A model generated the notes under the pieces. That model saw nothing but the letters and a program-made list of their open reading frames with translations. It was not told where the DNA came from and searched no databases. Below, in pieces: positions 465 to 18,423 of a DNA stretch of 64,000 nucleotides (its first letter is position 1; the number at the start of each line of letters is the position of its first letter). A program made the translations under genes and the position numbers. The stretch is from Albidovulum sediminis (lineage in GTDB: Bacteria; Pseudomonadota; Alphaproteobacteria; Rhodobacterales; Rhodobacteraceae), in contig NZ_JAOCQF010000002.1 in the NCBI RefSeq assembly GCF_025380365.1, positions 452,846 through 516,845 of the forward strand, given 5' to 3'.

Positions 465-2000
465 TCAGAGATCCATCAAGAGCCGCCGCGGGTCTTCCAG
501 CGCTTCCTTGACCCGCACGAGGAACGTCACCGCGCCCTTGCCGTCGACGATCCGGTGGTCGTAGCTGAGCGCGAGATACATCATCGGGCGGATGACGATC
601 TGGCCGTTCACCACCACCGGGCGGTCCTGGATCTTGTGCATGCCGAGGATGCCGGACTGCGGGGGGTTGAGGATCGGCGAGGACATCAGCGAGCCGTAGA
701 CGCCGCCGTTCGAGATGGTGAAGGACCCGCCCTGCATTTCTGCCATCGACAGTTTCCCGTCGCGGGCGCGGACGCCAAGTTCGGCGATCTTCTTCTCGAT
801 CGCGGCAAAGCCCATCTGGTCGGCGTCGCGCACCACCGGCACGACGAGGCCCGAAGGGGTGCCGACGGCGACGCCCATGTGGACGTAGTTCTTGTAGACG
901 ACATCGCCGCCGTCGATCTCGGCGTTGACCTCGGGCACTTCCTTCAGCGCGTGGCAGCAGGCCTTCACGAAGAAGGACATGAATCCCATCTTCACGCCGT
1001 GCTTCTTCTCGAAGGCGTCCTTGTAGGCGTTGCGCAGGTCCATGATGCCGGACATGTCCACCTCGTTGTAGGTGGTCAGCATCGCGGCGGTGTTCTGCGC
1101 GTCCTTGAGGCGCCGGGCGATGGTGGCGCGCAGGCGGGTCATCTTCACCCGTTCCTCGCGCGCGGCATCCTCGGCCGGGACGGGCGCGCGCGGTGGCGCG
1201 GCGGGGGCGGGCACGGCAGAGGCGACAGCGGGCGCGGCCTCGGCCTTGCCGGCAACGGCGCGGGCGACGTCCTCCTTCATGATGCGGCCGTCGCGGCCGG
1301 TGCCGGTCACCTCGGCGGCGGTGAGGCCGGCCTCGGCCATCGCCTTCTTGGCGGCGGGCGCATCTTCCACATCCGCGCGGGCGGCCGGGGTGGCGGCCGG
1401 GGCAGGGGCGGCGGCTGTGGCCGCCGGGGCGGCGGGCGCCGGGGCGGCAGCGGCGGCGCCTTCGGCCACGACCGCGAGGCGCGCCTTCGCGTCGACCGTG
1501 GAGCCTTCCGGCGCAAGGATTTCCGTCAGGACGCCGGCGACGGGCGAGGGCACCTCGACCGAGACCTTGTCGGTTTCAAGCTCGCACAGCATTTCGTCCA
1601 CCGCGACCGCATCGCCCACCTTCTTGAACCAGGTGGATACGGTCGCCTCGGTCACGCTTTCACCCAGCGTCGGCACCATCACGTCGGTCATCTTGCCCTC
1701 TTCGGCTTTCGGCGCGGCCTTGGGCGCCGGTTGTTGGGTGGGTTGCGCCGTGGCGGCCTCGGCGCCCGCGGCAATCTGTGCAAGAAGGGCATTGACGCCC
1801 ACGGTCGCGCCTTCGGGCGCGACAATCTCGGCAAGCCGGCCCGCTGCGGGGGCGGGAACCTCGACCGTCACCTTGTCGGTTTCAAGCTCGCAGAGCATCT
1901 CGTCCTGCGCGACGATGTCGCCTGGCTTCTTGAACCAGGTCGCCACTGTCGCCTCGGACACGCTTTCGCCCAGCGTCGGGACACGTACTTCGATCGTCAT
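465..2000 (-). CDS. sucB: Dihydrolipoyllysine-residue succinyltransferase, E2 of 2-oxoglutarate dehydrogenase, with two lipoyl domains
   Basis: This 511-residue protein is the E2 core that moves succinyl groups from lipoyl-lysine to CoA. Two N-terminal lipoyl domains are visible, with ETDK lysines at residues 43 and about 145, where the E. coli enzyme has one. An Ala/Pro linker follows, then a peripheral-subunit-binding domain (about 210-250, VxGTGxDGRI) and the CAT catalytic domain, which ends in a DHRIVDG motif (His482, Asp486). The start lies 2 nt after the sucA stop, so the genes are translationally coupled. The succinyl rather than acetyl assignment rests on the sucA neighbour. Confidence 0.97.
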
Positions 2001-2002
2001 CC

Positions 2003-4963
2003 TCAGGTCCCCACCGTCAGTGCTTCATCGACCAACGCTTCCTGTTCGGCCTTGTGGCGCGAGGCAAGCCCCGTCGCGGGCGAGGCAGAGGCAGTGCGCC
2101 CGACATAGCGCGCGCGCTTGTGCTTCGCGCCGATCCGGTCCAGCACCCACTCAAGGTTCGGCTCGACGAAGAACCAGGCGCCCTGGTTCTTGGGTTCCTC
2201 CTGGCACCAGACGATTTCCGCGCCCTTGAAACGCGTCAACTCATGCGTCAGCGACTGCGCCGGGAACGGATAGAACTGTTCCAGCCGTAGCAGATAGACG
2301 TCGTCGATCCCGCGCTTGTCGCGTTCGGCGAGAAGGTCGAAATAAACCTTGCCCGAGCAGATCACCACGCGGCGGATCTTCTTGTCGGTCGCCAGCTTGG
2401 TGTCCGAATGCCCCTTCTGCGCGTCGTCCCAGAGCACGCGGTGGAAGCTGGAGCCGGTGGTGAAATCCTCCGCGTCCGAGATGCAGAGCGGATGGCGCAG
2501 AAGCGATTTCGGCGTCATCAGGATCAGCGGCTTGCGGAACTGCCGGTGGATCTGGCGGCGCAGGATGTGGAAGTAGTTCGCCGGGGTCGAGCAGTTGGCG
2601 ACGATCCAGTTTTCCTGCGCGCATTGCTGCAGGAAGCGTTCCAGCCGCGCGGAGGAATGTTCCGGCCCCTGTCCCTCGAAGCCGTGCGGCAGCAGGCAGA
2701 CCAGGCCCGACATGCGCAACCATTTGGATTCGCCCGAGGAAATGAACTGGTCAAACATGATCTGCGCGCCGTTGGCGAAGTCGCCGAACTGGGCCTCCCA
2801 CATGGTCAGCGCGTTCGGTTCGGCCAGCGAATAGCCGTATTCGAAGCCGAGGACTGCATACTCCGACAGCATCGAATCGATGACCTCGTAGCGCGCCTGC
2901 CCCGCCCGGATGTGGTTCAGCGGGTAATAGCGTTCCTCGGTCGACTGGTCGACAAAGGCCGAATGGCGCTGCGAGAAGGTGCCGCGGGTGCAGTCCTGGC
3001 CCGATAGCCGGACCGGGAAGCCCTCGGTCAGGAGCGAGCCGAAGGCCACCGCCTCGGCCGTGGCCCAGTCGAAGCCCTGGCCGGTCTTGAACATCTGCGC
3101 CTTCGCCTCAAGCTGGCGCAGCACGGTCTTGTGGATGTCGAAGCCCTCGGGCGCGCGGGTCAGCGCGGCGCCGATCTCCGCCAGCGTCTTCTTGGCGATG
3201 GCGGTCTTGCCGGGCGTGTATTCGGCGCCCTCGCGGTCCAGGTGCGACCAGCGGCCGTCGAGCCAGTCGGCCTTGTTCGGCTTGTAGGCCTTGCCGGTCT
3301 CGAACTCCTCGTTCAGCGTCGCCTGGAAGGCCGCCTTCATGTCCTCGATCTCGCCTTCCGGGATCAAGCCGTCCTTGACCAGCCGCTCGGTGTAAAGCTG
3401 GAGCGTGGTCTTGTGGGTCTTGATGGTCTTGTACATCGCCGGGTTGGTGAACATCGGCTCGTCGCCTTCGTTGTGACCGAAGCGGCGGTAGCAGAAGATG
3501 TCGATGACCACGTCCCGCCCGAACTTCTGGCGGAACTCGGTCGCCACCCGCGCGGCGTGGACGACTGCCTCCGGGTCGTCGCCGTTCACGTGGAAGATCG
3601 GCGCCTCCACCATCAGCGCGATGTCCGTCGGATAGGGCGAGGAGCGCGAGAAGTGCGGCGCGGTGGTGAAGCCGATCTGGTTGTTGACGACGATGTGGAT
3701 GGTGCCGCCGGTGCGGTGGCCGCGCAGACCCGACAGGCCGAAGCATTCGGCCACGACGCCCTGGCCCGCGAAGGCCGCGTCCCCGTGCAGAAGGATCGGC
3801 AGCACGGCGCGGCGATCGGGGTCGCCCCACTGGTCCTGCTTGGCGCGGACCTTGCCGAGGACGACGGGGTTCACCGCCTCAAGGTGGCTGGGGTTCGCGG
3901 TCAGGCTGAGGTGCACGGTGTTGCCGTCGAAGGTGCGGTCCGACGAGGCGCCGAGATGGTATTTCACATCGCCCGATCCGTCCACGTCCTCGGGCTTGAA
4001 GCTGCCGCCCTGGAATTCATTGAAGATCGCGCGGTAGGGTTTGGCCAGAACGTTCGCCAGAACCGAGAGGCGTCCGCGGTGCGGCATGCCGATCACGATC
4101 TCCTTCACGCCGAGGCCGCCGCCGCGCTTGATGATCTGCTCCATCGCGGGGATCAGCGCCTCGCCGCCGTCAAGGCCGAAGCGCTTGGTGCCCATGTACT
4201 TGACATGCAGGAACTTCTCGAAGCCCTCGGCCTCCACGAGCTTGTTCAGGATGGCGCGGCGGCCGACCTTGGTAAAGGAAATCTCCTTGCCGTAGCCCTC
4301 GATCCGCTCCTTCAGCCAGCCGGCCTGCTCGGGGTCCGAAAGGTGCATGTACTGAAGCGCGAAGGTGCCGCAGTAGGTGCGCTTCACCATGTCGAGGATT
4401 TCGCGCATCGAGGCGTGTTCGAGGCCCAGAACCTTGTCGATGAAGATCGGGCGGTCCATGTCTGCGTCGGTGAAGCCGTAGCTTTTCGGGTCAAGCTCCG
4501 GGTGCGGCGCCTCGCTGCGCATGCCGAGCGGATCGAGGTCGGCCACCAGATGACCGCGGATGCGGTAGGCGCGGATGATCATCAGCGCGCGGATGCTGTC
4601 GAGCACGGCACGCTTGATCTGGTCTTCCGAGAGCGCCACCCCAGCCTCGGCCGCCTTGGCGCGGATCTTGTCGCCTGCGCCCTTCACCTCCTTCGCGGCC
4701 GCCGGCCATTCGCCGGTCAGCGCGGCGGTCAGGTCGTCGGCCGGGTGCGGCGGCCAGTCGGGCCTGTCCCAGGAGGCGCCGCGCGCCTCGTTGCGCACGT
4801 CGCCTTCCGCGTCGCCAAGCGAGCGGAAGAAGGCGGCCCAGGTCGCATCGACCGCGGCCGGGTCATTGGCGAAGCGAGCGTAAAGCTGCTCGACATATTC
4901 GGCGTTGGCGCCTTGCAGGAAGCTGGAGGCGTGGAACTGGTCGTTCTGGGGATGGTCGGTCAT
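2003..4963 (-). CDS. sucA: 2-oxoglutarate dehydrogenase E1 component
   Basis: This 986-residue thiamin-diphosphate enzyme decarboxylates 2-oxoglutarate and reductively succinylates the lipoyl groups of SucB. It begins with the typical N-terminal E2-binding segment ([17 protein letters not shown]). Family signatures include [31 protein letters not shown] in the ThDP/metal site and [17 protein letters not shown] in the C-terminal half. Length matches alphaproteobacterial homologues. It sits 48 bp downstream of sucD and 2 nt before sucB in the sucC-GT25-sucD-sucA-sucB run. A 933-codon antisense ORF over it is a G+C artefact. Confidence 0.98.
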
Positions 4964-5011: not shown

Positions 5012-5896
5012 TCATTTGCCGATCGCGGTCAGCACGGCCTGGCCAAGGCCCGCGGGGCTGTCGGCGACGATGATGCCGGCGGATTTCATCGCCTCGATCT
5101 TCGATTCCGCGTCACCCTTGCCGCCGGCGACGATGGCGCCCGCGTGGCCCATGCGGCGGCCCTTCGGGGCGGTGCGCCCGGCGATGAAGCCCGCGACCGG
5201 CTTCTTGCGGCCGCGCTTCGCCTCGTCCTTCAGGAACTGCGCCGCCTCTTCCTCGGCGCTGCCGCCGATCTCGCCGATCATGATGATCGACTGCGTCTCG
5301 TCGTCGGCGAGGAACCATTCGAGGACGTCGATATGTTCCGTCCCCTTGATCGGGTCGCCGCCGATGCCGACACAGGTCGACTGGCCGAGGCCCACGTCGG
5401 TCGTCTGCTTCACGGCCTCATAGGTCAGGGTGCCCGAACGCGACACGACACCGACCGATCCGCGGCGGTGGATGTGGCCCGGCATGATCCCGATCTTGCA
5501 GGCGCCGGGCGTGATCACGCCGGGGCAGTTCGGCCCGATCAGGCGGGATTTCGACCCTTGCAGCGCGCGCTTCACCTTCATCATGTCAAGGACCGGGATC
5601 CCTTCCGTGATGCAGACGATCAGTTCCATTTCAGCGTCGATCGCCTCGAGGATCGAATCCGCCGCGAAGGGGGGCGGCACGTAGATCGCGGTGGCGTTGG
5701 CTTCGGTCGCCGCCTTGGCCGCGTGCACCGAGTCGAAGACCGGCAGGCCCAGATGCTCGGTCCCGCCCTTGCCCGGCGTCACGCCGCCGACCATCTTCGT
5801 GCCGTAGGCGATCGCCTGTTCGGAGTGGAAGGTGCCCTGGCTGCCGGTGAAGCCCTGGCAGATGACCTTGGTGTGTTCGTTGACGAGTACGGCCAT
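5012..5896 (-). CDS. sucD: Succinyl-CoA synthetase, alpha subunit
   Basis: This 294-residue subunit binds CoA and carries the phosphohistidine of succinyl-CoA synthetase (ADP- or GDP-forming). It shows the Rossmann motif [10 protein letters not shown] near residue 16, the CPGVITPG loop and the GHAGAI histidine region near the C-terminus. It is normally co-transcribed directly after sucC. Here a glycosyltransferase gene separates the two, with a 30-nt gap to sucD. The sequence coding for VITP contains a chance GTGATCAC. Confidence 0.97.
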
Positions 5897-5926
5897 GCGC
5901 GTGGTCCCTTTCGCTTTCGCGTGCGT

Positions 5927-6799
5927 TCATGACGAGTGGGCGGGGGCGGTGACCCCGGCGCCCGTGTGATCGAGGTAGGTGACCTTGACGAGCCGCGCGC
6001 CATGCGCCGCCATCTGCCAAAGTTGCAGCGGCAGAAGCCGCAGTTCCGTCGCGCCGCGATGCAGTTTCTGGGCCATCCGCCCAAGGCCGCGGGCGCGCCG
6101 GCGACGCAAGCCGGTGCCGGGATGGGCCGGGCGGCTGCTGCCGGGCGGTTCGTTGCCCTGAATGACCAGCCCCGGCACGACCTGGTACAACCGAAGCTCA
6201 CGGGCGAGCCGCGACTGGTTGGGATTGAAGAGCATGTGGTCGATGGGCATAACGATCCGCGGCTCGGCCAGCACCCGTTCCGCGGCTGCGCGGCTGATAA
6301 CATACCCCGCAGTGCCCGGTGAACGCGACAGGATGCGGCGAACCTCGCGGCCGGAAAAGCGGGCTGCTGCCGGGGCGAGAAGCTGCTTCAGCCGGGGGGA
6401 GTGCCAGGCTTCGAACCTGACCACGTCGGCGCCGGCCGGCCACCAGTCGAGCGGCGAGAGCCAATCCCCCAGATCGCGGGCGGCGAAGACGTCATCCTCC
6501 AGAATCAGGCAGTGGCTGGCCTTGCCCGCCAGAAAGCCACGAAGCGCGGCCAGATGGCTCAACGTGCAGGCCTGGTCCTGCAAGGCGAAGGGGGCCAGAC
6601 GTCCGTCTGCCTCCATCTCCTGGATACTGGCCTGCACCTCCGTCCGAGATGCGTCCACGGCCGGGCTGATGGCCGCGGTCACGCCAGCCCGCGCCAGCGT
6701 CGCCTCCATCAGCGCGCGCCGGTCTGCCTGCCGGTCGAGGTTGACCATCAGGCAGGCCGCCTGTGCCGTCGTGGCGTCATTTGTGGCGTGCCCCTGCAC
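5927..6799 (-). CDS. Glycosyltransferase family 25 protein inserted between sucC and sucD
   Basis: This 290-residue protein is a GT25-type (LPS/glycan) glycosyltransferase. It has the N-terminal [11 protein letters not shown] motif (about residues 18-28), a [10 protein letters not shown] segment, the metal-binding ILEDDV (about residues 97-103), and [16 protein letters not shown] followed by MPIDHM. The C-terminal 60 residues are basic. The start used is GTG, 14 nt after the sucC stop. An ATG at 6748 would start at the VNLD motif itself and is a possible alternative. The tight spacing implies co-transcription with suc genes, although the function is unrelated to the TCA cycle. The acceptor is unknown. 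Confidence 0.85.
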
Positions 6800-6813: not shown

Positions 6814-8007
6814 CTACCCCTTCACCGCCTTCACGATCTTCTCCGCCGCGTCGCTCAGGTTGTCCCCGGCGATGACGTTGAGACCGGAGGTCGCGATGAT
6901 CTCCTTGCCCTTCTCGACGTTGGTCCCTTCAAGCCGGACCACGAGCGGCACCTTCAGTCCCACCTCTTTCACCGCGGCGATGATGCCCTCGGCGATGATG
7001 TCGCAGCGCATGATGCCGCCGAAGATGTTGACGAGGATGCCTTTGACGTTGGGGTCCGAGGTGATGATCTTGAAGGCCTCGGTCACCTTCTCCTTCGTCG
7101 CCCCGCCGCCGACGTCGAGGAAGTTGGCAGGTTCCGCGCCGTAAAGCTTGATGATGTCCATCGTCGCCATGGCCAGGCCTGCGCCGTTCACCATGCAGCC
7201 GATCTCGCCATCGAGCGCGATGTAGTTCAGGTCGAACTTCGACGCCGCAAGCTCCTTCGGGTCCTCCTCGGTCTCGTCCCGAAGCGCGAGGATGTCGGCC
7301 TGACGGTAGAGCGCGTTGTTGTCGAAGCCCATCTTCGCGTCGAGGCACTTGAGCGTGCCGTCGGTGCCGAGGATCAGCGGGTTGATCTCCAGCATCTCCA
7401 TGTCCTTGTCGGCGAAAAGCCGGTAGAGCGTCCGCACGAGGGCCACGCACTGCTTGACCTGCGCGCCGGAGAGCCCGAGCGCGAAGGCCACGCGGCGGCC
7501 GTGGAAGTCCGACAGGCCCGATGCGGGATCGACCGAGAACGACAGGATCTTCTCGGGCGTCTTCGCCGCCACTTCCTCGATGTCCATGCCGCCCTCGGTC
7601 GAGCAGACGAAGGCGATGCGGCTGGTCTGCCGGTCGACGAGCAGCGCGAGGTAGAATTCCTTCGCGATGTCGGAGCCGTCCTCGATGTAGATGCGGTTGA
7701 CCTGCTTGCCCGCGGGTCCGGTCTGGTGCGTCACCAGCGTGCGGCCCAGCATCTTGCGCGCCTCGTTCGCGGCCTCCTCGACCGAGCGGGCGATGCGCAC
7801 GCCGCCCTTCTCCCCGGCCTCGGTTTCCTTGAAGCGGCCCTTGCCGCGGCCGCCGGCGTGGATCTGCGCCTTCACGACCCAGAGCGGCCCGTCAAGCTCG
7901 CCCGCGGCGGTCTTCGCCTCTTCGGCGCGCAGGACGGCGCGGCCGTCGGACACCGGGGCGCCGTAGCTGCGCAGAAGCGCCTTGGCCTGATATTCATGGA
8001 TGTTCAT
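6814..8007 (-). CDS. sucC: Succinyl-CoA synthetase, beta subunit
   Basis: This 397-residue ATP-grasp subunit of succinyl-CoA synthetase begins [16 protein letters not shown]. Signatures include HAGGRGK in the N-terminal ATP-grasp lobe, LEINPL near residue 207, [11 protein letters not shown] and [10 protein letters not shown]. It is the first gene of the suc run. Its 279-bp upstream region carries the tandem GTGATCAC element and a TTGACA box described separately. The ATG at 8005-8007 is the family's usual start. Confidence 0.98.
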
Positions 8008-8114: not shown

Positions 8115-8145
8115 TGTGATCACACTCAGAAATTGTGTGATCACA
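8115..8145. promoter_or_regulatory. Tandem GTGATCAC palindromes upstream of sucC
   Basis: Two perfect 10-bp palindromes TGTGATCACA occupy 8115-8124 and 8136-8145, with an 11-nt spacer, so their centres are 21 bp (two helical turns) apart. They lie 108-138 bp upstream of sucC and after the mdh stop. The same arrangement, again with 21-bp periodicity, occurs at 14095-14125 upstream of sdhC. This suggests two dimers of one regulator bound on the same DNA face. I cannot name the regulator. Confidence 0.75.
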
Positions 8146-8286: not shown

Positions 8287-10463
<2,177 letters not shown>

Positions 10464-10678
10464 GAACTGATTCCCTTTTCCTGGCGTGCCGGTGGCGGCC
10501 GGGGTGGTCCGCTGCCGGGGCCTCTGTCGGGTGAAGCATTCGCTTCCAGCCGGTAAGCCGGGGTAAAGCCATCGTTCGCGCGCCGGCAGCGCACTTTTTT
10601 CTGCGCCGCGGCATTTCCGGGGTTGAAGATTGTGCCCAAATCGGCATGTCTGGCGCAAGATTGTTGCGAGGAGACGTC

Positions 10679-11578
10679 ATGGCCCCCTTGATCGACCCAC
10701 GCGGTCGTCCGTTGCGCTCGGTGCTCTACATCCCCGGCTCCCGGGAACGCGCGCTCGAAAAGGCCCGCGACCTGCCAACCGACGCCATCATCTTCGACCT
10801 CGAGGATGCTGTCGCGGCAGAGGAGAAGGAGAATGCGCGCGCCCTCCTGGCACGCGTCCTGGACGAAGGCGGCTATGGTGGGCGGCTAAGGATCGTGCGC
10901 ATCAACGGGTTCGATACGCCTTGGGGCCGTGCTGACGCGGCGGCCTTCGCAAACGTTGACGCGGATGCGATCCTGGTGCCCAAGGTCGGCTCTCCGGCCG
11001 ATCTTGACGCGGTGGCGGCGATGGTGCCCGACCGTCCGCTCTGGGCGATGATGGAAACGCCTCTGGGCGTTCTCAACGCTGCCGGGATCGCCGCGCATCC
11101 GCGTCTTCAGGGCATGGTCATGGGCACGAACGACCTCGCCAAGGAGTTGTCGGCACGGGTCCAGCCTGGGCGGGCCGAACTGATGACGGCACTCCAGCAT
11201 TGCCTTCTGGCCGCGCGCGCCCGTGGGCTAGCCATCGTCGACGGCGTCTTCAACGCCTTCAAGGACGAGGCGGGGCTGGCCGCGGAATGCGAGCAGGGCC
11301 GCAACCTGGGCTTCGACGGCAAGACCCTGATCCATCCTGCCCAGATCGAGATCGCCAACCGGATCTTCGCGCCCTCGGAGGCGGAAATCGACCTGGCCCG
11401 GCGCCAGATCGCCGCCTTCGAAGCGGCGGCGACCGCCGGGCAGGGGGTTGCCGTCGTCGATGGCCGCATCGTCGAGAACCTGCACGTGGCCACCGCGCGC
11501 GAGGTTCTGGCGCGGGCCGAGGCGATCGCGCGCGATCCCGCGCGCACTGACGCCGGCGGGCAGGAGGGGCGGGCATGA
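10679..11578 (+). CDS. mcl2: HpcH/HpaI-type CoA ester lyase, probable (3S)-malyl-CoA thioesterase
   Basis: This 299-residue member of the citrate-lyase beta/malyl-CoA lyase family starts at the ATG at 10679 behind a GAGGAG ribosome site. An in-frame upstream ATG at 10646 lacks support. Motifs are RSVLYIPGS, the metal-binding IIFDLEDAV, RINGFDTPWG and METPLGVLNA, typical of the TIM-barrel fold. In R. sphaeroides the paralogue next to mesaconyl-CoA hydratase is the malyl-CoA thioesterase that completes the ethylmalonyl-CoA pathway by releasing malate. The alternative is beta-methylmalyl/malyl-CoA lyase. Its stop overlaps the mch start by 4 nt. Confidence 0.85.
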   Translation: MAPLIDPRGRPLRSVLYIPGSRERALEKARDLPTDAIIFDLEDAVAAEEKENARALLARVLDEGGYGGRLRIVRINGFDTPWGRADAAAFANVDADAILVPKVGSPADLDAVAAMVPDRPLWAMMETPLGVLNAAGIAAHPRLQGMVMGTNDLAKELSARVQPGRAELMTALQHCLLAARARGLAIVDGVFNAFKDEAGLAAECEQGRNLGFDGKTLIHPAQIEIANRIFAPSEAEIDLARRQIAAFEAAATAGQGVAVVDGRIVENLHVATAREVLARAEAIARDPARTDAGGQEGRA

Positions 11579-12606
11579 AGACCAATCCGGGCCGCTTTTT
11601 CGAGGATTACAGCGTCGGCGAGGTGATAGACCACGCCATCCCGCGCACCCTGTCGGGCGGGGAACGGGCGCTTTACCACGCGCTTTATCCGGCACGGCAT
11701 GCGCTGCATTCCTCAGATGAATTCGCCCGCGCCTCGGGCCTTCTGGCGGCACCTTTCGACGATCTGATCACCTTCCACACCGTGTTCGGCAAGTCGGTGC
11801 CCGACATCTCGCTGAACGCGGTGGCCAATCTCGGCTATGCCGAGGGACGCTGGCTGAGGCCGGTCTTGCCGGGCGACACGATCCGGTCGGAAAGCACGGT
11901 GATCGGGCTGAGGGAGAATTCAAACGGCAAGTCCGGTGTCGTCTGGGTCAGGACGCGCGGCATGAACCAGCATGGCGATCCGGTACTGGAATTCGTCCGC
12001 TGGGTGATGGTCCGCAAGCATCGCGCAGAGAGCCCCGCAGCCGCGCCGATTGTTCCGGAAGTGAAAGAATTCGTGCCCGCCGATGAGTTGATCGTGCCTG
12101 CAGGGCTCGATTTCTCCAATTACGACTTCACTTTTGCGGGTGAGCCGCACCGCTGGGGCGACTATCGGGTGGGCGAAAGGATTGACCACGTCGACGGAGT
12201 CACCGTTGAGGAGGCCGAGCACATGCTGGCCACGCGGCTGTGGCAGAACACCGCGAAGGTGCATTTCGACCGGACCCAGCGCGAGGACGGCAAGCGGCTG
12301 ATCTACGGCGGGCATGTCATCAGTCTGGCGCGCGCGCTGTCCTTCAACGGGCTGGCGAACGCGCAGTCGATCGTCGCGCTGAATGCGGGCGCGCATGCGA
12401 ACCCCTGCTTTGCCGGCGATACCGTGCGGGCCTGGTCGGAGGTGCTCGACAAGGCCGAAACCGGCGCCCCCGGCGTCGGCGCGCTGCGCCTGCGCCTGGT
12501 GGCCACGCGCCACGGCGCGGAGCCCTTCGCGCTCAGGGACGCGTTGGGGAAATACCTGCCCGACGTCCTTCTGGATCTCGACTACTGGGCGCTCATGCCG
12601 CTGTGA
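11575..12606 (+). CDS. mch: Mesaconyl-CoA hydratase (MaoC-like, double hotdog)
   Basis: This 343-residue protein begins MKTNPGRFFEDYSVGEVIDHAIPRTL and has two MaoC/hotdog halves (about 1-165 and 180-340). The second carries GDYRVGERIDHVDG and YGGHVISLARALSFNGL. It matches the mesaconyl-CoA hydratase that converts mesaconyl-C1-CoA to beta-methylmalyl-CoA in the ethylmalonyl-CoA pathway. Translational coupling to mcl2 (ATGA overlap), together with ecm and ccr elsewhere in the window, strongly supports this over a generic MaoC dehydratase. Confidence 0.92.
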   Translation: MKTNPGRFFEDYSVGEVIDHAIPRTLSGGERALYHALYPARHALHSSDEFARASGLLAAPFDDLITFHTVFGKSVPDISLNAVANLGYAEGRWLRPVLPGDTIRSESTVIGLRENSNGKSGVVWVRTRGMNQHGDPVLEFVRWVMVRKHRAESPAAAPIVPEVKEFVPADELIVPAGLDFSNYDFTFAGEPHRWGDYRVGERIDHVDGVTVEEAEHMLATRLWQNTAKVHFDRTQREDGKRLIYGGHVISLARALSFNGLANAQSIVALNAGAHANPCFAGDTVRAWSEVLDKAETGAPGVGALRLRLVATRHGAEPFALRDALGKYLPDVLLDLDYWALMPL

Positions 12607-12680
12607 CACGAACGTGTAGCAGAGTGACGCCCGAGTGATCGCGAGCCGTGCTAGCCTTTCCGAAAGGAAGGGAGAACATT

Positions 12681-13334
12681 ATGAAAATCAATGGCCTGGT
12701 CACCGTGGTTGCGGTGGCCATCGGGGTGCCGCAGCTGGCGGCAGCCCAGGATTTCAACGTCTACGGCGGTGTCACCGCCACCACCAACTACGTCTTCCGC
12801 GGCGTCACCTTCTCGGATGACGGACCCGCGCTCCAGCCCTACCTGGAGGCGGAGTACAAGGGGTTCTACGCCGGCATCTGGGCGTCCAACGTCGACTTCG
12901 GCCCCGACGGAACCGACGACTATGAGGTCGACTACTACATCGGCTATCGCGGCGAGACCTCGGGCGGTTTCAGCTACGACGTGAACTATGCGCGGTTCAC
13001 TTTCGACGATACGGGCGACTGCTGCGGAGAATTCAACCTGGTGCTCGGCCTGCCGGTGGGGGAAAAGACCGAGGTTTCGGCGGTGTTCGCCTATGACCCG
13101 GATGCCAATGCGCTCGCCTCGGCGCTGGGCGCGTCCTATGCGATCAACGATCTCTGGTCGGTGTCTGCCAGCTTCGGCCACGATGAATTGCTGGCCCACA
13201 ACTACTGGGATGCCGGGGTTGGCTACACGATCAACGACACGACCTCGCTTGACCTTCGCTACCATGACACGTCGGACGGGGATTCGCTGTTCGTCGCGTC
13301 GGTGTCGTTCGACTTCACGCTTCTCAGCCGCTAG
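12681..13334 (+). CDS. TorF-family putative outer-membrane porin
   Basis: The 217-residue protein starts at an ATG at 12681 behind GGAAGGGAG. It has a signal peptide (cleavage after LAAAQ, about residue 23), followed by short alternating amphipathic strands rich in aromatic residues and Asp. The opening FNVYGGVTATTNYVFRGVTFSD is characteristic of the TorF/Gcw_chp family. The chain ends in a strand (SVSFDFTLLSR), as expected for a small beta-barrel. A CC pair (GDCCGEF) near residue 115 is unusual for a barrel. Transported substrate unknown. Confidence 0.8.
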   Translation: MKINGLVTVVAVAIGVPQLAAAQDFNVYGGVTATTNYVFRGVTFSDDGPALQPYLEAEYKGFYAGIWASNVDFGPDGTDDYEVDYYIGYRGETSGGFSYDVNYARFTFDDTGDCCGEFNLVLGLPVGEKTEVSAVFAYDPDANALASALGASYAINDLWSVSASFGHDELLAHNYWDAGVGYTINDTTSLDLRYHDTSDGDSLFVASVSFDFTLLSR

Positions 13335-13394
13335 ACGCGGGCACCTGCGCCTTGGACGCAGACGAACGCGATCCCGCGTGCTAGCGTGCCGCGC

Positions 13395-14078
13395 ATGAGC
13401 CCGTTCCGATCGGCACTTCTCGCAGCCGCCACCGCCCTGTCGCTTCTCCCGGCGCCGGGGCGGGCATGCGATCTTGCGCTGGTCCTGGCGGTCGACATCT
13501 CCGGCTCGGTGGACGAACGGGAATACGAGATCCAGATGCGCGGTCTCGCCGAAGGCCTGAGCGACCCGGAGGTTGCCGAGGCGCTGGTGCGCAACCGCGC
13601 GGCCCTCACGCTGGTGCAGTGGACCGGCTCGACGCGGCAGGCGGTTTCCGTGCCCTGGACGCGAATCGCCTCGCCCGGCGATGTGGCGGCCCTTGCCGAA
13701 AGGATCGAGGGCACCCCCCGGCTCTGGTCGATCTACTCGACCGCGATCGGCGAGGCGCTGCTTTATTCCGCCGCCACCTTCGGCGAGGTGCCGGACTGCG
13801 AGCGGCGCGTCATCGACGTGTCGGGCGACGGCCCTTCAAACGAAGGCATCGACCCGCGAGACCTGCGGGACACCCTTCTGCGCGACAGGATCACGGTGAA
13901 CGCTCTTGTCATCGAGGACGGCGTGTCGGGCCTGCGCGACTATTACTGGCAGAACGTGATCCTCGGCCCCGGGGCGTTCGTCGTCGTGGCCAACAGCTTT
14001 CGCGACTATCCCGACCGGATGCGCGAGAAACTCCGGCGCGAGACGGAACGGCAACTGTCGATGCTGGAATCGCCCTGA
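13395..14078 (+). CDS. DUF1194 domain protein with von Willebrand A-like fold, secreted
   Basis: This 227-residue product has a signal peptide (residues 1-24, ending PGRA) and then CDLALVLAVDISGSVDEREY, a near-canonical MIDAS motif (DxSxS) of the VWA fold. VIDVSGDGPSNEG and GLRDYYWQNVILGPGAFV complete the DUF1194 pattern common in Rhodobacteraceae and Rhizobiales. It is expected in the periplasm; its partner is unknown. The ATG at 13395 is preferred over the GTG at 13386 because it begins the signal peptide directly. It lies 172 bp before sdhC on the same strand. Confidence 0.82.
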   Translation: MSPFRSALLAAATALSLLPAPGRACDLALVLAVDISGSVDEREYEIQMRGLAEGLSDPEVAEALVRNRAALTLVQWTGSTRQAVSVPWTRIASPGDVAALAERIEGTPRLWSIYSTAIGEALLYSAATFGEVPDCERRVIDVSGDGPSNEGIDPRDLRDTLLRDRITVNALVIEDGVSGLRDYYWQNVILGPGAFVVVANSFRDYPDRMREKLRRETERQLSMLESP

Positions 14079-14094: not shown

Positions 14095-14125
14095 TGTGAT
14101 CACACATCGCAACGGCGTGATCACA
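14095..14125. promoter_or_regulatory. Tandem GTGATCAC palindromes upstream of sdhC
   Basis: TGTGATCACA (14095-14104) and CGTGATCACA (14116-14125) are separated by 11 nt, so the GTGATCAC cores start 21 bp apart, exactly as upstream of sucC. They lie 126-156 bp before the sdhC ATG. The shared element suggests joint control of succinyl-CoA synthetase/2-oxoglutarate dehydrogenase and succinate dehydrogenase. Confidence 0.75.
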
Positions 14126-14187
14126 AACTGGAAAAACTGGCGGAACCGGCGGCGAAGGGTGCGTTTTTCGGTGAAGTCCGGCGTGAC

Positions 14188-14212
14188 TTGACGGATTTTT
14201 TCGCTATTCATG
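14188..14212 (+). promoter_or_regulatory. TTGACG-N10-CTATTCATG box upstream of sdhC
   Basis: TTGACG (14188-14193) is followed after 10 nt by CTATTCATG (14204-14212), about 40-60 bp upstream of sdhC. The same layout precedes sucC. It is a plausible core-promoter or activator region, but no ideal -35/-10 pair at 17 bp can be assigned. Confidence 0.4.
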
Positions 14213-14250: not shown

Positions 14251-14634
14251 ATGGCAGAGGCAAACCAGGGCAATCGTCCGCTTTCACCGCATTTGCAGAT
14301 CTACCGCCCGCAACTGACCTCGATCACTTCGATCCTGACCCGCATCACCGGCAATGCGCTGATCGTGGCGACGATCCTGGTGGTGTGGTGGCTGCTGGCG
14401 GCGGCCACGGGGCCCGACTATTTCGTGCTGGCCGATGCGGTCGTCCGGTCCTGGTTCGGAAAGCTGGTCTTCCTCGGATCCATCTGGGCGGTCTGGTACC
14501 ACTTCCTCGCCGGGCTCCGGCACCTCTACTACGACAGCGGCCGCGGCCTCGACATTCCCACCGCGGAAAAGCTCGGCTGGGCCTGCATCATCGGCTCGGT
14601 CGTCCTGACCGTGATCACAGTCATCATTCTCTGA
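14251..14634 (+). CDS. sdhC: Succinate dehydrogenase cytochrome b556 subunit
   Basis: This 127-residue membrane anchor of complex II has three predicted transmembrane helices (about 30-50, 68-90, 105-126). The RPLSPHLQIYRPQLTSI signature and the HFLAGLRHLYYD segment carry the heme/quinone-site histidine. The start is the ATG at 14251 behind GAAAGGA. A longer in-frame TTG start would overlap the promoter box. It is first in sdhCDA-lipoprotein-lipoprotein-sdhB, and the next gene begins 11 nt downstream. Confidence 0.95.
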   Translation: MAEANQGNRPLSPHLQIYRPQLTSITSILTRITGNALIVATILVVWWLLAAATGPDYFVLADAVVRSWFGKLVFLGSIWAVWYHFLAGLRHLYYDSGRGLDIPTAEKLGWACIIGSVVLTVITVIIL

Positions 14635-15026: not shown

Positions 15027-16829
15027 ATGACTGCTTATCCTTTTGAAGTTCACGAATATGACGTCGTGGTCGTGGGCGCGGGCGGTGCGGGCCTGCGCGC
15101 GACGCTCGGCATGGCCGAACAGGGGCTGAGGACGGCCTGCGTGACCAAGGTTTTTCCGACGCGGTCCCACACGGTTGCCGCGCAGGGCGGGATTGCCGCC
15201 TCGCTCTCGAACATGGGGCCCGACCACTGGCAGTGGCACATGTATGACACGGTCAAGGGCTCCGACTGGCTGGGCGACACCGACGCGATGGAATACCTCG
15301 CGCGCGAGGCGCCGAAGGCGGTTTACGAGCTTGAGCACTATGGCGTGCCCTTCAGCCGGACCGAGGAAGGCAAGATCTACCAACGCCCCTTCGGCGGCCA
15401 CACGACCGAATTCGGCGAAGGCCCCCCGGTGCAGCGCACCTGCGCTGCTGCCGACCGCACCGGCCACGCGATCCTGCACACCCTTTACGGCCAGAGCCTG
15501 AAGGAAAAGGCAGAGTTCTTCATCGAATACTTCGCCATTGACCTCATCATCACCGACGGCGCCTGCACCGGCGTGGTGGCCTGGAAGCTGGATGATGGCA
15601 CGATCCATGTCTTCAACGCCAAGATGGTGGTGCTGGCGACCGGCGGCTATGGCCGGGCCTATTTCAGCGCGACAAGCGCGCACACCTGCACCGGCGACGG
15701 TGGCGGCATGGTGGCGCGCGCCGGCCTGCCCTTGCAGGACATGGAATTCGTGCAGTTCCACCCGACCGGCATCTACGGCGCGGGCGTGCTGATCACCGAG
15801 GGCGCGCGGGGCGAGGGCGGATACCTCACCAACTCGGAAGGCGAGCGGTTCATGGAACGCTACGCGCCGACCTACAAGGATCTGGCCAGCCGCGACGTCG
15901 TCAGCCGCTGCATGACGATCGAGATCCGCGAGGGGCGCGGCGTGGGCGAGGGCAAGGACCACATCCACCTGAACCTCAGCCATATCCCCCCCGCGACGTT
16001 GCACGAACGGCTGCCGGGCATCACCGAGTCGGCGCGCATCTTCTCGGGCGTCGATGTCACGAAGGAGCCGATCCCGGTGCTGCCGACGGTGCACTACAAC
16101 ATGGGCGGCATCCCCACGAACTATTGGGGAGAGGTGCTGAACCCGACGGCGGATGCCCCCGATGCCGTCTTCCCCGGCCTGATGGCCGTGGGCGAGGCAG
16201 GCTGCGCGAGCGTCCATGGCGCCAACCGCCTGGGCTCCAACAGCCTGATCGACCTTGTGGTTTTCGGCCGCGCCGCGGCCATTCGCGCGGGCCAGATCGT
16301 GAAACCCGGGGCGGCGAACGTTCCCGTCAACAAGGCCGAGGTCGACCGGGCGCTTGCACGCTTCGACGGGTTGCGCCATGCCAAGGGCAACGTCGCGACG
16401 GCCGACTTGCGCCTTGAGATGCAGAAGACCATGCAGGCGGATGCCGCCGTCTTCCGCACCGACAAGACTCTGGCCGAAGGTGTCGAGAAAATGGGCAAGG
16501 TCGCCGCCAAGATGGACGACCTGAAGGTCACCGACCGGTCGCTGATCTGGAACTCCGACCTGATGGAGACGCTGGAACTCGCCAACCTGATGCCGAATGC
16601 GCTGGCCACCATCACCGCTGCCGAGGCGCGCAAGGAAAGCCGGGGCGCGCACGCGCATGAAGATTGGCCGAACCGCGATGACGCCAACTGGCGCAAGCAT
16701 TCGCTGGCCTGGGTCGACGGTGCGAAGGTGACTCTGGGATACCGTCCTGTGCATCTGGAGCCGCTGACCAAGCCCGAACAGGGCGGGATCGACCCGAAGA
16801 AGATTGCGCCGAAGGCGAGGGTCTACTGA
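15027..16829 (+). CDS. sdhA: Succinate dehydrogenase flavoprotein subunit
   Basis: This 600-residue catalytic subunit oxidises succinate to fumarate. An N-terminal FAD Rossmann motif [11 protein letters not shown] (about residue 13) is followed by [10 protein letters not shown], whose histidine carries the covalent FAD. Also present are [10 protein letters not shown], the TEGARGEGG loop and the C-terminal [10 protein letters not shown] signature. Length is normal. Its stop overlaps the ATG of the following lipoprotein gene by one base, an unusual neighbour because sdhB normally follows. Confidence 0.98.
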
Positions 16830-17347
16830 TGCGCGGGCCCGCACTGATGACTGTCATGGCTTCGCTAGCGCTCGCCGCCTGCGAAACCCAGACCGTTCCG
16901 GGCGGGCCGATCGCGCTTTGCAGTGCGCAGTCGGGACTGACGGTGCGCGCGGCGCGCCTGCAGGCCTCGGGCGCCACCGGTCCGGTTGCAGCGACGGCGG
17001 CGGAGGCCGAGGCGATCAACGCCTGCCTTGAGCGGGCCGGCGCGCCCGCGCTCGCGCGCGAGGTGACCGTGGCGGTGCCGACGCCGGAGCGCGAGGGGGC
17101 GAACGTCCTCTCCGGGGGGGACGCTTATCGCGGTTCCTCGCTGGTCGAGGTGACGATTGCGCCCGTGCCGTCCGCGCCTGCGCCATACGTGAAACCCGCG
17201 GCCGGCAAGCTGCCGTTGCCGACGTCCTATCCGCTGCTGCCGGGGGATGCGGAACTGTGGCAGACTCTGACGCGGGCAGAGCAGGAACGCGCGCTCCTGT
17301 TCCTTCAGGACGGCTCCAGCATCCGCGCCTCGCTGAGGACGGACTGA
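16829..17347 (+). CDS. Lipoprotein of unknown function within the sdh operon
   Basis: This 172-residue product has a lipoprotein signal (MASLALAAC, lipobox Cys at about residue 18) and no recognisable catalytic motif. The middle is rich in Ala, Thr and Pro and contains ATAAEAEAINACLERAGAP. The C-terminal SYPLLPGDAELWQTLTRAEQERALLFLQDG looks helical. It starts on the last base of the sdhA stop and ends on the first base of the next lipoprotein ATG, so expression must be coupled to complex II. Location is likely the periplasmic side of a membrane. It may be a clade-specific complex II accessory; this is inference only. Confidence 0.75.
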   Translation: MRGPALMTVMASLALAACETQTVPGGPIALCSAQSGLTVRAARLQASGATGPVAATAAEAEAINACLERAGAPALAREVTVAVPTPEREGANVLSGGDAYRGSSLVEVTIAPVPSAPAPYVKPAAGKLPLPTSYPLLPGDAELWQTLTRAEQERALLFLQDGSSIRASLRTD

Positions 17348-17643
17348 TGCACCCTGCCACGGCCCTTCTGCCACTGTGCCTTGCCCTTGCGGCCTGTGGT
17401 CCGATGTCGGTCGAACGCGCCGAGGAGGCGTGCTATGACCGCGCGCGCCTGGCGGCAGGGCCGCGTGGCATGGTCGCGCTGGGCACCGGTTCGGGCGGTC
17501 CGGCCTCCAAGTTCGAGCTGGAGATCTCCAGCGATTACCTTCAGGGCCGCGATCCGTCCGCCCTTTACGATGCCTGCGTCTATCAGAAATCCGGCCAGCC
17601 ACCGCGCCAGCCGCTCTACACCCGCCGAGATTGGAAGGGATAA
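17347..17643 (+). CDS. Small lipoprotein within the sdh operon
   Basis: This 98-residue product has a lipobox (ALAACG, Cys at about residue 17), followed by VERAEEACYDRARLAAGPRG and, near the C-terminus, DYLQGRDPSALYDACVYQKSGQPP. The two extra cysteines could form a disulfide. The ATG overlaps the preceding stop by 1 nt, and sdhB starts 3 nt after its stop. The sandwiching between sdhA and sdhB suggests a conserved partner of succinate dehydrogenase or a co-regulated envelope protein. No family function is known to me. Confidence 0.78.
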   Translation: MHPATALLPLCLALAACGPMSVERAEEACYDRARLAAGPRGMVALGTGSGGPASKFELEISSDYLQGRDPSALYDACVYQKSGQPPRQPLYTRRDWKG

Positions 17644-17646
17644 GCC

Positions 17647-18423
17647 ATGGTCCAGTTCACGCTTCCGAAGAATTCGAAGATCCGGGTCGGCAAGACCTGG
17701 CCGAAGCCCGAGGGCAGGAACATCCGCAAGTTCCAGATCTACCGCTGGGACCCCGACACCGGCGAGAACCCGCGGGTCGATACCTATTTCCTCGACATGG
17801 ACAAGTGCGGGCCGATGGTCCTGGACGCGCTGATCAAGATCAAGAACGAGGTCGACCCGACGCTGACCTTCCGCCGGTCCTGCCGCGAGGGGATCTGCGG
17901 ATCGTGTGCCATGAACATCGACGGGATCAACACGCTCGCCTGCATCTACGGGCTCGACGAGGTTAAGGGCGACGTGAAGATCTATCCCCTGCCGCACATG
18001 CCGGTGGTCAAGGACCTGATCCCGGACCTCACGCATTTCTACGCGCAGCACGCCTCGATCATGCCCTGGCTGGAGACCAAGACGAACCGGCCGGCGAAGG
18101 AATGGCGCCAGTCGATCGAGGACCGCAAGAAGCTCGACGGGCTCTATGAATGCGTGATGTGCGCCTCCTGCTCCACCTCCTGCCCGTCCTACTGGTGGAA
18201 CTCGGACCGCTACCTCGGGCCGGCAGCCCTTCTCCACGCCTACCGCTGGATCATCGATTCGCGCGATGAGGCCACGGGCGAGCGGCTGGACGAGCTTGAG
18301 GACCCCTTCAAGCTCTACCGCTGCCACACGATCATGAACTGCGCCAAGACCTGCCCGAAGGGCCTGAACCCGGCCAAGGCCATCGCCGAGATCAAGAAGA
18401 TGATGGTCGAGCGGGTGGTGTGA
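17647..18423 (+). CDS. sdhB: Succinate dehydrogenase iron-sulfur subunit
   Basis: This 258-residue electron-transfer subunit has an N-terminal plant-type ferredoxin domain with [13 protein letters not shown]...LAC ligands for the [2Fe-2S] cluster. The C-terminal [13 protein letters not shown] and [17 protein letters not shown] provide the [4Fe-4S] and [3Fe-4S] cluster ligands. Length and motif spacing are normal. It is last in the sdh operon, 3 nt after the small lipoprotein gene, and a short stem with four T follows it. Confidence 0.98.

Follow-up and report, generated by a model that had tools for sequence, protein, structure and literature searches.

AkgR of Rhodobacter sphaeroides is reportedly RSP_0981, an identification ascribed to Imam et al. 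2015. In the part of PMC6365646 covered here, AkgR is called a transcriptional activator and GTGATCAC is given among its reported binding sites. RSP_0981 is described as a GntR regulator with predicted control of sucCD (RSP_0967-6), sdh (RSP_0974-6) and the sucAB-lpd or 2-oxoglutarate dehydrogenase genes (RSP_0965-62), according to the covered part of PMC4344238. The GntR-like PS417_07240 of Pseudomonas simiae is 32% identical to AkgR and shares the upstream GTGATCAC palindrome, but it is proposed to control a deoxyribonate-oxidation cluster and one palindrome is described in the available text (PMC6365646). CceR (RSP_1663), a member of the LacI family, is likewise predicted to act on sdh, and on mdh, but its motif differs, being [A/G/T]GTT-N6-8-AAC[A/C/T] (PMC4344238, in part). 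A CceR site was rejected for the elements described here because the palindrome TGTGATCACA, scanned alone, contains neither GTT nor AAC.

These elements share with the AkgR/RSP_0981 regulon of Rhodobacter (Cereibacter) sphaeroides, as it appears in the covered texts, a GntR-type regulator, the GTGATCAC core and the predicted sucCD, sdh and sucAB-lpd targets. The regulator, the core and the targets are already known from R. sphaeroides. Added here are the geometry and wide occurrence of the paired sites, the pattern of distances at sdhC and a site in the promoter of the regulator gene itself. The AkgR literature covered, which excludes Imam et al. 2015, holds in its available parts no 21-bp tandem, no sdhC phasing and no own-promoter site. 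A literature search of the same coverage returned no description of the pair geometry, its breadth, the sdhC distances or the own-promoter site, and a text search on TGTGATCACA returned no title on bacterial TCA-cycle regulation. A sequence-only reading of this DNA had assigned the pairs to a regulator still to be identified, a claim contradicted by the reported AkgR site GTGATCAC (PMC6365646) and the target prediction for RSP_0981 (PMC4344238), as far as these texts were covered.

The window is the whole stretch of 64,000 nucleotides of Albidovulum sediminis that was analysed (Table 1). Two perfect copies of TGTGATCACA (8115-8124 and 8136-8145) lie in the mdh-sucC intergenic region with their centres 21 bp apart, and the pair is 107 bases from the sucC ATG (8007, minus strand). 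The two palindromes of 10 bp, two helical turns apart, are as the sequence-only reading had reported them. It had also reported a matching pair at sdhC, for which the identical spacing holds; the second copy is imperfect, as 14095-14104 is an exact TGTGATCACA and 14116-14125 is CGTGATCACA, identical at 9 of 10 positions. This pair is 125 bases from the sdhC ATG (14251). Exact TGTGATCACA occurs three times in the window versus zero in every one of 100 dinucleotide shuffles. With one mismatch allowed there are five occurrences, versus a shuffle mean of 0.83, and five were reached in one of the 100 shuffles; the fifth of these matches, a CGTGATCACA at 14610-14619, is within the sdhC coding sequence.

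Table 1. Genes and putative regulatory elements of the suc-mdh-sdh region, in window coordinates
Feature	Position	Strand	Remark
sucB, 2-oxoglutarate dehydrogenase E2	465..2000	-	
sucA, 2-oxoglutarate dehydrogenase E1	2003..4963	-	
sucD	5012..5896	-	
sucC, succinyl-CoA synthetase beta subunit	6814..8007	-	first gene after pair
paired operator (putative), sucC upstream	8115..8145	.	two perfect TGTGATCACA, 21-bp period
mdh	8287..9249	-	upstream of sucC pair, same strand as sucC
paired operator (putative), sdhC upstream	14095..14125	.	TGTGATCACA + CGTGATCACA, 21-bp period
GTGACT, -35-like element (putative promoter)	14183..14188	+	58 bases after sdhC pair core
sdhC	14251..14634	+	
sdhA	15027..16829	+	
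sdhB	17647..18423	+	

The suc genes are interspersed with glycosyltransferase ORFs, one of GT25 type between sucD and sucC (window 5927-6799, minus strand) and, immediately to the left of the window, one of GT2 type between lpd and sucB (L028:11820-12818, minus strand). The stretch between mdh and sdhC (9397-14078) holds a TauE/SafE-type exporter, an HpcH/HpaI-type (malyl-CoA lyase-like) gene, a mesaconyl-CoA hydratase-type gene, a Gcw_chp outer-membrane-type gene and a DUF1194 gene.

A scan of the whole A. sediminis genome (4,294,115 bases, 20 contigs) gave a single exact pair. When as many as 3 mismatches of 20 were tolerated, the sucC and sdhC places were still the only ones in the entire 4.29 Mb. 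Many unrelated or intragenic copies of the pair, which the sequence-only reading had named as evidence against its proposal, were not found. At sucA and lpd the same search returned no pair of their own. Exact single copies of TGTGATCACA number six, with three in the two pairs and three intragenic. The intragenic copies comprise one in a conjugative coupling-protein gene and one in each of two identical IS6/IS240-type transposase ORFs, which lie at 5192-5902 and 16777-17487 of a 17.6-kb contig (L029, G000:C2).

Conservation was examined in 248 genomes of the family, representing 247 genera, with the search GTGATCAC-N0-30-GTGATCAC. The pair is present in 222 of these genomes and its backwards control in one (G243). 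The cores are separated by 13 nt (21-bp period) in 354 of 438 pairs, in 205 genomes, and by 12 nt (20-bp period) in 46 further pairs, summed over 67 genomes; the other 38 pairs are scattered over 29 different spacings. Two pairs per genome were found in 156 of the 248. A looser search, with 3 mismatches of 20, gave matches in three of the 26 family genomes without an exact pair. One of these, G040, carries a pair with 2 mismatches 107 bases ahead of the sucC ATG and is a diverged real case because this is the same distance as in the window. The matches in G155 (two) and G209 are inside long open frames and look like chance. Built from 34 sucC and 31 sdhC pairs of 13-nt spacing, the consensus is T-rich before the pair and A-rich after it, with an AT-rich spacer. 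The class-wide sample has the pair in 21 of 289 genomes, including all four members of this family; outside the family the spacings are dispersed, and the backwards control had 42 matches in G320 and one in G477. The paired arrangement is kept in most sampled genera of Rhodobacteraceae. Conservation in relatives, expected by the sequence-only reading, is therefore present, and together with the shuffles and the genome-wide uniqueness it places the pairs far beyond chance.

The genes that follow the pairs were classified for 181 distinct pairs, a non-random sample drawn from loci among the matches listed, the window and deliberately chosen third pairs. Among the 158 with 12-13 nt between cores, 79 precede sucC, 74 sdhC, two sucA, one fumC and two none of these. 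Of the two without a target class, L336 falls within a Mur-ligase-type ORF, whereas L313 is between ORFs and ahead of one of vitamin-transporter type. Measured from the GTGATCAC core, the distance to the start codon is 96-154 bases (median 109) at sucC and 107-191 bases (median 131.5) at sdhC. In G177 (L053) mdh and sucA flank the pair and sucC is absent from the interval, so the place at the operon head is kept. The 23 distinct pairs of other spacing include one before the GntR regulator gene described below, one before sucC and one before sdhC; 20 were assigned to none, and several sit within long ORFs. Of gltA, acn, icd, fumC and lpd, named earlier as further candidate targets, only fumC was seen among the 158 pairs, in one genome (G042), with gltA, acn and icd not searched by name. 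The fumarase C pair is a third pair with 13 nt (L197, G042:C16:228293-228321). In G135 three GTGATCAC cores follow one another in 21-bp steps before sucC (L300, G135:C8:374318-374367); this triple site was entered as two overlapping sucC pairs.

A preferred distance to a putative promoter was found at sdhC. Downstream of the pair, GTGAC[ATC] occurs in 65 of 74 sdhC regions (the first was used in the four regions with several), and in 51 of these 65 it is 57-61 bases from the pair. The other 14 distances are 24, 37, 48, 51, 68, 69, 70, 70, 71, 78, 78, 79, 80 and 81. These outlying distances lean to multiples of 10.5 bp from the main peak (p 0.0002 versus random positions, 20,000 draws), with those of 24 and 51 bases off the helical phase. 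The p value is only a guide because the GTGAC anchor was picked after viewing 35 sequences and the genomes are related. The distances support, and do not prove, a face-of-helix constraint. In the window a second -35 candidate near sdhC is TTGACG at 14188-14193. At sucC no consistent -35/-10 emerged when promoters were sought by consensus.

The candidate ortholog of AkgR is an FCD-type GntR gene (L024, C13:449635-450282), which is 2.6 kb left of the window and convergent with lpd. In 23 of 66 named regulator loci lpd is within 600 bp of the end of the regulator gene, and in the others it is further away or outside the fetched stretch. The L024 protein has GntR and FCD domains above the Pfam cut-offs and no NCBIfam match above cut-off, the match to McbR scoring 82 bits, far below the required 225. 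Its predicted model has a mean pLDDT of 89.6, and the closest solved fold is that of E. coli McbR (YncC; 4p9f, TM 0.85, 27% identity), which is also the best PDB profile match of the protein. The targets of McbR differ from suc and sdh. Residues N137, H141, H184 and D206 do not vary among 40 orthologs, and by analogy with FCD proteins they may make up a site for a metal or ligand.

The regulator gene often carries a single site in its own promoter. Of 64 named loci, 37 have exact GTGATCAC 10-34 bases ahead of the regulator start and 27 lack it, two of the 66 having been excluded for too short an upstream sequence. Among unnamed loci, which may overlap the named ones in species, it is upstream of the regulator in 12 of 30 and absent from 18; in A. 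sediminis it is at -16. As a control, GTGATCAC occurs in 273 of 13,200 random windows of 309 bases from the named loci. TTGA[CT] is ahead of the site in all 37 of the 37 loci, and the gap between hexamer and site is 12-14 nt in 35 of 37. The site would therefore overlie the -10 region, and an ATG so close behind it points to a leaderless transcript. The regulator gene of G187 is preceded by two sites 5 nt apart.

The pairs are very probably operators of the lpd-linked AkgR ortholog, from which two dimers would activate suc and sdh, and the single site would serve self-repression. Each TGTGATCACA would be the docking site for one dimer of the ortholog. Two dimers 20-21 bp apart would occupy the same face of the helix, ahead of the promoters of suc and sdh, a position suited to activation. 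The fixed spacing thus suits the idea of two-dimer binding put forward in the sequence-only reading. The paired dimers would activate suc and sdh, so that the enzymes leading from 2-oxoglutarate to fumarate rise together. One dimer bound downstream of the -35 hexamer and ahead of the start codon would lie over the core promoter of the regulator gene, a position suited to repression, and AkgR would repress its own gene. Binding, activation and self-repression are all deduced from the arrangement of the sites.

Alternatively, the lpd-linked GntR protein binds the pairs mainly as a repressor or roadblock. GntR proteins are mostly repressors, and the own-promoter site is placed as it would be for one. 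However, the pairs are far upstream, with the sdhC core mostly at the distance of 57-61 bases before the -35-like element described above, and AkgR is termed an activator in the covered part of PMC6365646. We regard a mainly repressive role as unlikely.

The identity of the regulator is supported by its distribution. With orthologs called at E <= 1e-70, the 248 genomes include 218 with both pair and ortholog, 22 with neither, four with the ortholog without the pair and four with the pair without the ortholog, counts that come from a cut set after the values were seen and from genomes that are related rather than independent. The ortholog was scored as present down to matches of about 1e-75, and the next ones are at 6.9e-56 and 8.2e-55. 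At E <= 1e-25 both are found in 221 genomes, the ortholog only in ten, the pair only in one and neither in 16. The class-wide matches listed fall into two groups, one of at least 73% identity, entirely from this family, and one of at most 43%. The operator core GTGATCAC of the AkgR regulon is present at both pairs of the window, and the pairs stand at sucC, the head of the suc genes, and at sdhC, in line with the predicted AkgR targets. We infer that the lpd-linked GntR ortholog is AkgR/RSP_0981, and judged from sequence both pairs most likely bind it.

A different regulator still to be identified, a GntR paralog or a member of another family, might bind the pairs instead, the lpd-linked GntR protein merely having a similar site. 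Pairs of GTGATCAC adjoin other GntR/FCD genes in other alphaproteobacterial families (L160 in G393, with 13 nt; L176 in G358, with 16 nt), whose proteins have 27-37% identity, and the covered part of PMC6365646 proposes that a Pseudomonas regulator, 32% identical, uses GTGATCAC. The site is thus not unique to one protein, and a wider GntR/FCD subfamily probably reads this core. Against a different regulator stands the co-occurrence of the pair with the lpd-linked ortholog. In addition, many pair-bearing genomes have a single match to the ortholog at E <= 1e-25, so paralogs are not needed. Among the 19 FCD regulators of A. sediminis only L024 has GTGATCAC in the stretch from -400 to +300 relative to its start, and the other 18 all lack the core there. 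Such a regulator is improbable, a little more so than the repressive role.

TGTGA and TCACA are CRP half-sites, and the CRP consensus is TGTGA-N6-TCACA. A CRP-type site was rejected because in the palindrome the half-sites abut, without the 6-nt spacer. Reading the pairs as sites of CRP or FNR type, or as chance, is scarcely credible, since no CRP analogue is predicted for R. sphaeroides (PMC4344238, in part) and the family-wide counts stand against a backwards control found in G243 alone.

We lean slightly towards a fuller reading in which AkgR has two modes and a very small regulon that is deeply conserved. At suc and sdh, and in most genomes nowhere else, it would act through a stereotyped enhancer of two dimers, in helical register with the promoter across about 200 genera, and through a single site it would repress its own, probably leaderless, gene over the core promoter. 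If the two-mode reading is true, the fixed 20-21-bp pairing, and not the palindrome alone, separates activation from repression.

Under the operator reading, a strongly conserved element of a large bacterial family is tied to a known, little-studied regulator of the TCA cycle. That regulator gains an architecture, with two sites at a 20-21-bp period, a preferred promoter distance and a single site at its own gene. AkgR sites could then be annotated readily from sequence, and whether a GntR protein activates cooperatively would become directly testable.
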